In this document: positions 45,842 to 51,131 of the stretch, one piece after another
Layout: each line of letters opens with the position of its first letter
How positions within the stretch are numbered: position 1 is the stretch's first letter
NCBI RefSeq assembly: GCF_001187555.1
Contig: NZ_LFIJ01000002.1
Span: 1,116,545 to 1,180,544 of the forward strand
Reading direction: 5' to 3'
Length of the DNA: 64,000 nucleotides
Source of the DNA: Gilvimarinus polysaccharolyticus
Lineage (GTDB): Bacteria > Pseudomonadota > Gammaproteobacteria > Pseudomonadales > Cellvibrionaceae
Translations under genes and position numbers: made by a program
Notes under the pieces: model-generated
Database searches by the model: none
Seen by the model: only the letters and a program-made list of their open reading frames with translations
What the model was told of the DNA's origin: nothing

Positions 45842-46222
45842 CTACATCAGTTTAATTACCTGAATATCATCGGGCAGCCGACTTGCCCCTGCGCTTTGTA
45901 TTGCGTCTAGATAGCTTTGCCAGAAGTGTTCGCGATTTTGACAAAACTCGTGCAGTTGCTCCCAAGTGTAAATACCCGTGTCGTGGCCGTCGTCAAACAC
46001 CAGCTTAATAGCATAGTTGCCAACGGCCTCTATGCGTTTGATATTGACCTCTTGTTTGCCCGTTTGCAGTACCGCTTGTCCTGGCCCATGGCCTTTCACC
46101 TCGGCACTGGGTGAGTGTACCCGTAAAAACTCGGCGGTTAGCCGGTAGTGGTCGGCGCCGAACTGGAGCTCCAGTTCGGCGCTTTTGCGGTGCAAGGTGA
46201 TGCGGTCTGGGGCTTTACTCAT
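45842..46222 (-). CDS. DUF971 (GBBH-like N-terminal domain) protein
   Basis: A 126-residue protein of the DUF971 family, the small domain also found at the N-terminus of gamma-butyrobetaine hydroxylases. The family pattern shows in FLRVHSPSAEVKGHG, VNIKRIEAVGNYAIKLVFDDGHDTGIYTW and LHEFCQNR. Stand-alone copies often follow hslU in gammaproteobacteria, as here, 25 bases downstream. No function is established; a role in Fe-S or metal handling has been suggested for related domains. Confidence 0.88.
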   Translation of the reverse strand: MSKAPDRITLHRKSAELELQFGADHYRLTAEFLRVHSPSAEVKGHGPGQAVLQTGKQEVNIKRIEAVGNYAIKLVFDDGHDTGIYTWEQLHEFCQNREHFWQSYLDAIQSAGASRLPDDIQVIKLM

Positions 46223-47582: not shown

Positions 47583-48122
47583 TTAGTATTCCAGTGTTTC
47601 GATGGTCTGGTTGTGATTGGTGTAGATACAAATGTCACCAGCAATGTTGAGGCTTTTGTTGACGATGCTGCCGGGGTCTAAATCGGTGTTGTCGAGTAGA
47701 GCGCGGGCGGCCGATTGCGCAAAAGCCCCGCCGGAACCGATGGCAATCAAATCATCTTCGGGCTGAATGACATCGCCATTACCGGTAATGATTAACGATG
47801 CTTCTTTATCGGCAACCGCTAATAACGCTTCTAGCTTGCGCAGCGAGCGCTCGGTGCGCCAGTCTTTGGCCAGCTCTACGGCGGCGCGGGTCAGTTGGCC
47901 ATTATAGGCTTCAAGTTTTGCCTCAAAGCGCTCAAACAAGGTGAAGGCGTCGGCGGTGCCGCCGGCAAATCCGGCTAGTACTTGGTCTTTATACAAACGC
48001 CGAACTTTGCGGGCGTTGCCTTTCATAATGGTGTTGCCCAGTGATACTTGGCCGTCGCCGCCGATGACGACGGTGTTGCCACGGCGCACGGAGAGTATGG
48101 TGGTGCCTCGATACTGTTCCAC
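47583..48122 (-). CDS. hslV: ATP-dependent protease peptidase subunit HslV
   Basis: A 179-residue threonine peptidase forming the proteolytic double ring of HslUV. The mature N-terminal threonine lies in [20 protein letters not shown]; a seven-residue leader MEQYRGT must be removed to expose the catalytic Thr. [20 protein letters not shown] and [15 protein letters not shown] are family hallmarks. Translation begins with GTG at 48122, preceded by ACAAGGACTTTCT. A sigma-32 promoter and a perfect stem-loop lie upstream. Confidence 0.96.
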
Positions 48123-48176
48123 AGAAAGTCCTTGTGTTGTTAAGGGTGCAGTTAAGCACGCACTAAAATGCTAGGC

Positions 48177-48202
48177 GCCGCCGCAAATATATTTGCGGCG
48201 GC
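48177..48202 (-). promoter_or_regulatory. 26-bp perfect palindrome at the 5' end of the hslVU mRNA
   Basis: A fully self-complementary stretch with 13-bp arms (GCCGCCGCAAATA / TATTTGCGGCGGC). It begins about 13 bases after the -10 box of the heat-shock promoter, so it would fold at or near the very 5' end of the hslVU transcript, about 55 bases before the GTG. There is no T tract after it, so it is not a normal terminator. A conserved inverted repeat in the E. coli hslVU leader that stabilises the mRNA is recalled; this one has a different sequence but the same position. Confidence 0.75.
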
Positions 48203-48214
48203 CTTGAACAGGTT

Positions 48215-48242
48215 AAATGGGGGCGCGCCTGATGATTTCAAG
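48215..48242 (-). promoter_or_regulatory. Sigma-32 heat-shock promoter of hslVU
   Basis: On the minus strand CTTGAA (48242-48237) is followed after 14 bases by CCCCATTT (48222-48215). These are exact matches to the sigma-32 consensus CTTGAA and CCCCATnT with the required 13-17 base spacing. It lies after the stop of the SPOR gene and about 93 bases before the hslV GTG. Heat induction of hslVU is established in E. coli. Confidence 0.85.
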
Positions 48243-48259
48243 CGTGGCGCCGAGTGTTG

Positions 48260-48847
48260 TTAGCCGCCTGGCTTACGTTGTAATACCAACGCATTGTACT
48301 GATTGGTGACCAGCGTAGAGCGAGCTTTGGATAGCTTACGTTGATTGTCGAACGGGCCCACCACGACTCGATGCCAGCGTTCATTATTATTAATGGTTAC
48401 GCTTTCGGTGCGAGCACCTAAGTTGAGCAGGATCAATTGTGCACGTAATTTGTCAGCATCGTCCGGGTTGCGAAACGAGCCCACCTGTAATAAATATTTA
48501 ACTGGCGTGGCCGGCGGCGTATCGTTATCACGCCGGTTTGGCTCGGTTGCCGGGACGATGACTTCCTCTTCTTGCAGTAGCTTATAAAAATCAAAGCGCG
48601 GCTTGGGTAGTTCTGCTTGGGCATCGGGCTCTTTTTCGGCTTTGGGTTTTGGCTCTGTTGGGGTTTGTGTTGTAGCGGCGGCCTTTGGCGGCTGTTGGTT
48701 AGGGGCTACATTCCACAAATACACCAAAAACATGATAAAAGCGCCCAGCATCGAGCCGATAAACAACCAGACCCACCAGGGTATTTGGCTGCGCGGCGCT
48801 TGGCGCTTAGGAGTAGGACGTTTTTTGCGGGCGTAATCGCGGGTCAT
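48260..48847 (-). CDS. SPOR-domain (FtsN-like) cell-division protein
   Basis: A 195-residue bitopic membrane protein. It has a basic cytoplasmic tail (TRDYARKKRPTPKRQAPR), one membrane helix (about 26-48, WWVWLFIGSMLGAFIMFLVYLW), a Pro/Lys/Glu-rich periplasmic linker, and a C-terminal SPOR domain (about 120-195, YLLQVGSFRNPDDADKLRAQ...RWHRVVVGPFDNQRK) that binds denuded septal peptidoglycan. In Pseudomonas-type genomes the same gene precedes hslV. The frame is open upstream to 49006, but those residues are Cys/Arg-rich nonsense; the ATG at 48847 gives the proper N-terminus, although its ribosome site is weak. Confidence 0.88.
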   Translation of the reverse strand: MTRDYARKKRPTPKRQAPRSQIPWWVWLFIGSMLGAFIMFLVYLWNVAPNQQPPKAAATTQTPTEPKPKAEKEPDAQAELPKPRFDFYKLLQEEEVIVPATEPNRRDNDTPPATPVKYLLQVGSFRNPDDADKLRAQLILLNLGARTESVTINNNERWHRVVVGPFDNQRKLSKARSTLVTNQYNALVLQRKPGG

Positions 48848-48938
48848 GGCTGTTTGTTTACCGATAAAAACCGCTATTTTACGGGGGCAAGTGCCACCGC
48901 TGCAATTGCTTGTACGTAATAAGCGCGAATGAGTTGTG

Positions 48939-51131
48939 TTAGCCCATCTCTTGCGGGTCAATATCGATCGACCAGCGAATCGTGCGAGCAGTTTTTTGAG
49001 CGTCAATAAGAGTGATCAGTTTGCCTGCATAGGCATTAAGTGTACGGCGATTGAGGGCTTTAAATTGCAATAAATAACGAAACCGCTGTCCACGTTTTTC
49101 CATCAGTGCGGGCATGGGGCCTAGTATTTGAACTTGTTGGTCGGTTTGAATTGACTCGGCGAGTAGCCGTGCTTGTTGTAAGAACTGCATGGCGGCAGCG
49201 GGGTTGGGGGCATCGGCACGCAGTAACACTAAAAACGCTGATGGCGGCATTAACGTGAGTGCGCGCTCATCGAGCAAGGCTTGGGCAAATTGGCCGTAAC
49301 CTTGGTTTAGCAGTAATTGCAGCAGCGGGTGATCGCCGTGTTGGCTTTGTAGTAATACTTGTCCGGGTTGGTCGGCGCGCCCAGCGCGTCCGGCTACTTG
49401 GGTGATGAGTTGACCCATGCGTTCGGGGCCTCGAAAATCAGCACTAAACAAGCCGCTATCGACATCCAAAATAATAACCAGTGTTACTTTGGGAAAGTGG
49501 TGCCCTTTGGCGAGCATTTGCGTGCCCACCAAAATACACGGTTCGCCCTCGTGGACTTTATTGATCAGAGCGTCCAGTGCACCTTTGTTGCGGGTTGAAT
49601 CGCGGTCGATGCGAATTACCGGGGTGTCGGGAAATACTTGATTTAAATACTCCTCGCTGCGCTCTGTGCCGGCACCCAAGGGCTCAAGCCGGTGGCCTTG
49701 GCAAGACTCACAATGCTTGGCCGGCGGGCGCTGGTAATCACAGTGGTGGCAGTGCAGATGATAAGGGCTGCGGTGCAGAGTAAGGCGTGCATCACAATGA
49801 GGGCAGCTTAGCTGATGACCGCAATCACGGCATTGCAGAACTGGCGCAAAGCCTCGGCGGTTTAAAAAAACCAGTGCTTGGTTGCCCGCGCCGGTATGTT
49901 GCGCCAGTGCGGTGAGCGCTTCACTGGTAATGCCGTGCTGCTCTGCGGCCGGTTGGCTGTTGATAACTTCGATAGGTGTGGCTTGGTTGGCCGTGGCGCG
50001 CTGCGTTAAGCGCAGGTGTCGATAGCGTCCATCATGGGCGTTTTGCAGCACTTCCAGAGAGGGTGTTGCTGACCCCAAAATTAGAGGGATATTAAGCATG
50101 CGTGCGCGCACTGCGGCTAAATCGCGCGCCGAGTAGCGAAAGCCATCTTGTTGCTTAAATGAGCCATCGTGTTCTTCATCGATGATGATCAGCGCAGGGT
50201 TTGCCATTGGGGTAAAAATAGCTGAGCGGGTGCCGATGATAATACGCGCATCGCCCTCTGCGGCACGCACCCAACTATTAAGGCGCTCGGTATCGTTTAG
50301 GCCTGAATGTACAGCACACACGCTGGGGCCAAAACGGTGTCGAAAGCGCGCTAAGGTTTGCGGGGTTAAGCCAATTTCGGGCACTAAAACCAGCGCCTGA
50401 GCTTGTGGGTTGGCGGCCAGCGCTTGGGCAATCGCCTGTAGGTATACTTCGGTTTTGCCACTGCCAGTGGTGCCGTCCAGCAGGTAGACGCCAAACCCGT
50501 GAGGGGCAATGGCACCCAGTGCAGCCTGTTGCTCGGGATTTAAGTTTAGCGGTGATTGCGCGTTAAAGGGGGCGGCTAAATTACTTGTGGGGCGGATAAG
50601 TTTTTTCTCGCTTAAGGCGCGTAAGGCCTCGCGGCTGCAACCTGCGTTTTTTAGCTCGGCCCAGCGGCAGGCGCCGTGTTGCTGTAACTGTTTAATAATG
50701 CTCGCTTGTTGACGTGCGCGGCCAAGGGCGCCGGCTGGCAGGCCGCGGCCCTCCTCGGTAAGCTCCCACAGTTGCGTGCCGGTGTCGGCTTTATATTGCG
50801 CAGCATCACCTTGGCGCAGCGCTGCAGGCAACGCCGCTTGTAGGGCCTCGCCCAGAGGGGCGTGATAATAATTGGCCGCCCAGCGAATAAATTTTAAGAG
50901 CTGGCCGCTAATGAGTGGTTGGGAATCGATGACGTTATCGAGAGGTTTAATCTTATTGGTGTCAAAGTCGCACTGGTCCGTGCCGGCAATCACGATCCCC
51001 ACCAGTTGGCGGCCACCAAATGTGACACTAACCCGAGTGCCTGGTGCGGGCAGTGGCACGGGCGCTAGGTAGTGAAACAGTGTGCGCAGCGGCACGGGTA
51101 GCGCAACAAGTACAAAGGGTACGGTGGTCAT
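48939..51131 (-). CDS. priA: Primosomal protein N' (replication restart helicase PriA)
   Basis: A 730-residue DEAH-box 3'-5' helicase that reloads the replisome at stalled forks. It has Walker A in DGTTGSGKTEVYL, the Walker B variant IIIDEEHDGSFKQQDG, and eight zinc-binding cysteines between the helicase lobes (LQCRDCGHQLSCPHCDAR ... CHHCDYQ ... HCESCQG). Start MTTVPFVLVALPVPL at 51131 fits the 732-residue E. coli protein; an earlier frame start at 51173 adds 14 residues. No purine-rich ribosome site precedes it. argS, often the next gene, is absent here. Confidence 0.94.
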   Translation of the reverse strand: MTTVPFVLVALPVPLRTLFHYLAPVPLPAPGTRVSVTFGGRQLVGIVIAGTDQCDFDTNKIKPLDNVIDSQPLISGQLLKFIRWAANYYHAPLGEALQAALPAALRQGDAAQYKADTGTQLWELTEEGRGLPAGALGRARQQASIIKQLQQHGACRWAELKNAGCSREALRALSEKKLIRPTSNLAAPFNAQSPLNLNPEQQAALGAIAPHGFGVYLLDGTTGSGKTEVYLQAIAQALAANPQAQALVLVPEIGLTPQTLARFRHRFGPSVCAVHSGLNDTERLNSWVRAAEGDARIIIGTRSAIFTPMANPALIIIDEEHDGSFKQQDGFRYSARDLAAVRARMLNIPLILGSATPSLEVLQNAHDGRYRHLRLTQRATANQATPIEVINSQPAAEQHGITSEALTALAQHTGAGNQALVFLNRRGFAPVLQCRDCGHQLSCPHCDARLTLHRSPYHLHCHHCDYQRPPAKHCESCQGHRLEPLGAGTERSEEYLNQVFPDTPVIRIDRDSTRNKGALDALINKVHEGEPCILVGTQMLAKGHHFPKVTLVIILDVDSGLFSADFRGPERMGQLITQVAGRAGRADQPGQVLLQSQHGDHPLLQLLLNQGYGQFAQALLDERALTLMPPSAFLVLLRADAPNPAAAMQFLQQARLLAESIQTDQQVQILGPMPALMEKRGQRFRYLLQFKALNRRTLNAYAGKLITLIDAQKTARTIRWSIDIDPQEMG

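Follow-up and report, generated by a model that had tools for sequence, protein, structure and literature searches.

The hslVU operon of Gilvimarinus polysaccharolyticus stands behind a promoter of the heat-shock type, and a perfect palindrome lies between this promoter and the first gene. The question raised by this locus is whether the hairpin that the palindrome would form at the head of the hslVU mRNA has a function, and which one. The locus was read within a 64,000-nt stretch of DNA, here called the window, and its features are collected in Table 1. Other neighbours were recognized by their PriA and GBBH-like_N domains (Pfam). In E. coli, hslVU is also preceded by ftsN, which occupies the same place as the SPOR open frame here. 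As judged by HslV, the nearest named genome is that of Gilvimarinus algae (L088, 94% identity), and another locus of the genus, L003, has exactly the same upstream sequence.

Table 1. Positions in the window of the hslVU genes and of the elements read in and around their leader
Feature	Position	Strand	Basis
-35 element CTTGAA (next base A, giving CTTGAAA)	48237..48242	-	sequence reading; exact match to the sigma-32 consensus; position kept in relatives
-10 element CCCCATTT, 14 nt past the -35 hexamer	48215..48222	-	sequence reading and comparison with relatives
12-nt stretch, probable transcription start region (predicted)	48203..48214	-	spacing after the -10 box
26-bp perfect palindrome GCCGCCGCAAATATATTTGCGGCGGC; as RNA an 11-bp stem with UAUA loop, -20.0 kcal/mol	48177..48202	-	inverted-repeat scan, folding
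Shine-Dalgarno-like AAGGA, outside the hairpin	48129..48133	-	sequence reading
hslV, peptidase subunit, GTG start (48122-48120), 179 aa	47583..48122	-	Pfam Proteasome PF00227
hslU, ATPase subunit, 438 aa	46248..47564	-	Pfam AAA_2, AAA
Upstream open frame with SPOR domain, FtsN-like	48260..49006	-	Pfam on the 3' part, 48260-48862; start putative

Upstream of a heat-shock gene, the sigma-32 (RpoH) consensus pairs CTTGAA with CCCCATnT at a spacing of about 13-17 nt. The match that had been claimed, CTTGAA-N14-CCCCATTT (48242-48215), was present on the minus strand with both boxes, the right spacing and a heat-shock gene downstream, and it was conserved at the orthologous places of other genomes. 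In the 3.74-Mb genome the exact pattern CTTGAA-N12..16-CCCCAT occurred three times, compared with once for the reversed control. These occurrences lay ahead of hslVU, ahead of a GrpE gene (Pfam GrpE) and within the coding sequence of a transporter (L347), the last of which was set aside as chance. The grpE promoter (L349:1501-1560) is followed by a short leader, which has no stem starting 10-16 nt past the -10 box.

The sigma-32 site ahead of hslVU is widely conserved. At a promoter score of at least 11 of 14, it was found in 9/9 loci of the genus (shuffles 0/45; L088 counted along with L003), 60/85 other loci of the family (6/425), 19/25 other loci of the order (0/125), 57/79 named loci from genome contigs (1/395) and 18/55 other loci of the class (2/275), identical sequences being kept in these counts (25 sets of identical upstream sequence) and some loci recurring between groups. 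The E. coli-order sample gave 82/90, with the duplicate of the window (L348) left out, compared with 6/455 in shuffles that include it. Several class loci (for example L065, L075, L077, L078, L084 and L086) share a motif that resembles GTGTACAAT or GTGTAGAAT and stands some 25-60 nt ahead of hslV. Most of the class loci with this motif have no good sigma-32 match, and the motif is perhaps a different promoter.

Transcription usually starts some 5-8 nt downstream of the -10 box. The 26-bp perfect palindrome reported downstream of the promoter was recovered at 48202-48177 of the minus strand. It begins 12 nt after CCCCATTT, 54 nt separate it from the GTG of hslV, and its arms GCCGCCGCAAATA and TATTTGCGGCGGC (13 nt each) match at 100% with a spacer of 0. 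The earlier note had given the mRNA a 13-bp stem, which needs correction: a palindrome with zero spacer cannot form a 13-bp hairpin, and folding gave 11 bp closed by a 4-nt loop. Two perfect palindromes with zero spacer and arms of at least 10 nt were present in the window, compared with 0.15 on average over 60 dinucleotide shuffles. A 95-nt piece of the hslVU leader folded at z=-4.0, and the stability of the window hairpin, for a start 10-16 nt past the -10 box, was reached by 0/400 shuffles (p=0.0025). The palindrome was present as a single copy in its own genome at up to 3 mismatches, which ruled out its reading as a repeat element. A longer perfect palindrome of 28 bp (GCGCCGAACTGGAG/CTCCAGTTCGGCGC) lies at 46155-46182 of the window, within the GBBH-like_N coding sequence downstream of hslU.

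A structured leader ahead of a heat-shock gene might suggest an RNA thermometer, which opens on heating and frees the ribosome site. The Shine-Dalgarno sequence lies outside the stem, however, and its mean predicted unpaired probability was 0.44 at 30 °C and no more than 0.55 at 50 °C, assuming a transcript start 7 nt past the -10 box. A thermometer, which would hold the ribosome site in a heat-labile stem, was therefore ruled out, and we give it next to no credence.

The stem was then compared with intrinsic terminators, which share its G+C-rich character. It could act as a terminator, or descend from one, that serves the upstream SPOR gene or attenuates hslVU within its own leader. Arms with the identical 11 nt, GCCGCCGCAAA and TTTGCGGCGGC, make up an apparent intrinsic terminator with a T tail in a genome of the same genus (G007), where a nearly identical palindrome followed by a T run lies between fliE and the gene of a sigma-54 activator (L169:1501-1526). 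Moreover, a leader hairpin 18-23 nt past the -10 box and then a T run occur in two sampled families, labelled f227 (5/5 leaders) and f250 (1/1) in the genome collection. Against this, a terminator scan of 47900-48500 found 0 on either strand, the window stem has no T run, the stem of the sister species (L002) likewise lacks one, and the stem is placed after the heat-shock promoter and not before it. The empty scan ruled out the window stem as a terminator in its present form. A terminator-derived stem is a serious rival, and we judge the terminator reading as a whole to be unlikely. In the f227 and f250 loci (L251, L253, L254, L256, L265 and L206) the hairpin lies between the sigma-32 promoter and hslV and is followed by a T run, and it could attenuate hslVU there.

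The stem was variable within the genus. With d as the number of nucleotides between the -10 box and the stem, d was 12 in the window (L001) and also in the sister L002, whose stem has different letters and again gave p=0.0025 with 400 shuffles. L004 and L005 carried 5-bp stems at d=11. At d=12, L003 had a weak stem (-5.4, p=0.21), with a stronger one at d=28, while L006 had 4 bp only (p=0.10), and the leaders of L007 and L008 had no stem at this position. The stem is therefore dispensable, being absent from two leaders, weak at this spot in a third and almost absent from a fourth. A significant anchored hairpin was found in 4/8 genus leaders at p<0.05 and in 3/8 at p<0.01, compared with 0/8 for both controls described below. 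In the hslVU tree, L001 paired with L002 and L007 with L008, and L003-L006 were joined. A single stem in the ancestor of the genus, with loss in L007 and L008 and weakening in L006, would fit this tree, in which the node joining the two pairs has a support of 0.38.

Among the 9 outer pairs of L001 and L002, 3 differed in both bases, 1 in a single base and 5 in none, and all were still paired. This count is partly circular because both leaders were chosen as hairpins. MAFFT alignments of the hairpins left the arms out of register, so that no pair statistic was drawn from them. The kept pairing also bears on the palindrome as a DNA operator, at which a dimeric regulator would sit over the transcription start. 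Perfect symmetry over 26 bp, directly past the promoter, would suit such a site, but the sister species changes the letters and keeps the pairing. Beyond the one copy in its own genome, the other 7 genomes of the genus contain the palindrome, at up to 3 mismatches, only as the G007 terminator. We regard an operator as very improbable.

The survey beyond the genus rested on hairpins at d=10-16, a range picked after the E. coli and window hairpins had been seen. These were compared with 400 dinucleotide shuffles in 217 non-identical sigma-32-type leaders, and windows upstream of the -35 element and windows 25 nt downstream served as controls. The family sample had a match in 99/100 genomes (93 leaders read, 6 left out) and the E. 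coli-order sample in 92/99 (89 read, 3 left out; genomes of 0.2-0.3 Mb). From the order (132 matches) and the class (326 matches) mainly the loci nearest in HslV were read, so these groups are biased to the window's relatives. At least 150 nt upstream were available for 344 leaders (of which L168 duplicates the window). Of these, 235 were usable, with a score of at least 11, a length of 28-135 nt and at least 200 nt upstream, the score cut excluding leaders without a sigma-32 match; 217 were left after repeats were dropped.

At p<0.01, an anchored hairpin was found in 23/217 leaders, compared with 9/217 for the upstream and 1/217 for the downstream control, in p-values that ignore phylogeny and over related, non-independent rows. 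The windows upstream of the -35 element thus also carry hairpins above chance. In the E. coli order, with E. coli itself included, the count was 16/79 compared with 5/79 upstream and 1/79 downstream, and the cases came from 8/23 families. The 130 remaining leaders gave 4 compared with 4 upstream and 0 downstream at p<0.01, and 14 compared with 8 and 3 at p<0.05. Among them, the 54 leaders from the rest of the family were not above the upstream control (6 compared with 5 at p<0.05, and 2 compared with 3 at p<0.01). When the best hairpin at d 0-40 was taken, -8 kcal/mol was reached in 33/217 leaders, with d below 11 in none and d of 11-14 in 14. These counts by group place the hairpin signal in the E. 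coli order and the genus Gilvimarinus, and a leader conserved across the family or the class was ruled out by comparison with the upstream control. Relatives lacking any stem, which the earlier note had named as grounds for rejecting its proposal, were found in part: 2/8 genus leaders had none, and the rest of the family stood at the control level.

The same counts bear on a hairpin fixed by chance, which would have no function and would have been noticed because long leaders give room for it. In half of the genus the stem is weak or missing, the rest of the family shows no enrichment, and the leaders of the genus are long (median 72 nt compared with 44 nt in the rest of the family). The shuffle result in the window and its recurrence in the sister with other letters argue against chance, as does the enrichment of the E. 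coli-order sample over both controls. We find chance fixation rather unlikely. The hairpin is real, probably functional, and a form, restricted to certain lineages, of a kind already known.

In E. coli DSM 30083, GCCCCGTACTTTTGTACGGGGT begins 13 nt past its CCCCATCT (d=13), which bears out the claim that the E. coli leader has an inverted repeat with different bases. The significant cases in its order had d=11-16 (10-16 being tested) and include GCGCTATGCT/AGTATAGCGT (L203), GCCCTGA/TCAGGGC (L214) and AGCTAAC/GTTAGCT (L219), while L225, from the E. coli family, had no such stem. Stems at the same place with different sequence therefore hold for E. coli and for several further families of its order.

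The E. coli hairpin is already curated in Rfam as RF02401 (ClpQY_promoter), so that the idea of a structured leader is not new in E. coli. Among eight loci given to this model, E. coli, L200 (95% HslV identity to E. coli), L201 and L202 matched with 52.9-70.7 bits, and L203, L214, L215 and L225 did not. Genome searches under strict filters, by which weak matches are lost, found RF02401 in 3/99 E. coli-order genomes and in 0/100 genomes of the window's family; in the control, E. coli alone of 14 matched. Window positions 48050-48300 gave no match even at E<=10 (the membership cut-off is 42 bits), and membership of the window leader was ruled out. As in RF02401, a stem-loop directly follows the hslVU promoter in the window. 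Both share the operon, a sigma-32-type promoter, a strong stem-loop 12-14 nt past the -10 box and a Shine-Dalgarno sequence downstream outside the stem, whereas the letters of the stem, the loop and the spacer to the start codon differ. The proposed class of structured leaders thus exists in E. coli and is wider than the Rfam family, but it is patchy and does not extend across the class.

Lien and others are said to have treated the E. coli clpQY leader inverted repeat and mRNA stability in 2009. The E. coli stem-loop is stated to be required for expression and mRNA stability, with no test cited, in the accessible part of one paper (PMC7786107). The accessible part of another describes a transposon insertion in a clpQY promoter and gives no structure (PMC13393419), and that of a third contains nothing on an hslVU leader hairpin (PMC10743992). 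A text search of a fourth gave no hit (PMC12061854). At the level of titles and the beginnings of abstracts, no paper on hslVU leader hairpins was found, a weak negative, as the subscription literature lies mostly outside the reach of such a search.

Our preferred reading, to which we give about an even chance, is a 5'-proximal stem-loop that slows the decay of a heat-induced hslVU mRNA, with the start site, the protection and the heat-shock role all predicted. A sigma-32 (RpoH) promoter would drive hslVU, and the transcript would start a few bases ahead of the strong stem-loop. The stem-loop would hinder attack that depends on the 5' end (RppH, RNase E) and so lengthen the life of the heat-induced mRNA, while the ribosome site about 43 nt downstream would stay free. 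Strong 5' protection classically needs few unpaired 5' bases. The stem probably starts some nucleotides downstream of the predicted +1, which counts against protection. The lack of a stem in close relatives and at grpE and the recurrence of its arms in the G007 terminator count against it as well. In the accessible parts of published work, bla mRNA gains stability from a hairpin added at its 5' end, and hairpins of this kind hinder RppH, while sequestering the 5' end fails to stabilise the rpsO and T7-made lacZ mRNAs (PMC3997798); stem-loops in the 5'-UTR stabilise Acinetobacter recA and Helicobacter vacA (PMC7509114). The stem-loops of ompA, papA, recA and vacA, so far as these sources cover them, lie near the 5' end, as is predicted for the Gilvimarinus stem, and likewise outside the Shine-Dalgarno sequence; stabilisation was measured there, whereas it is only predicted for Gilvimarinus hslVU.

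Read in this way, the hairpin is probably a structure that protects RNA and is gained and lost from lineage to lineage, and not one conserved RNA family. We propose that position and stability count and the letters do not, so that lineages may keep, rewrite, weaken or lose the stem. A broader reading, possible though we lean somewhat against it, is an element defined by position without a fixed sequence: selection would act only for a stable stem about 11-14 nt past the -10 box, such stems would be made, rewritten and lost repeatedly, and RF02401 would be one local version of a much wider class that includes Gilvimarinus. If this is true, the curated RF02401 covers a small part of the hairpins at its position, and annotation would need to look for such elements by position and structure instead of sequence. 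One genus would then offer a natural series of strong, rewritten, weakened and absent stems, in which the tuning of heat-shock mRNA life by a 5' stem-loop could be followed.
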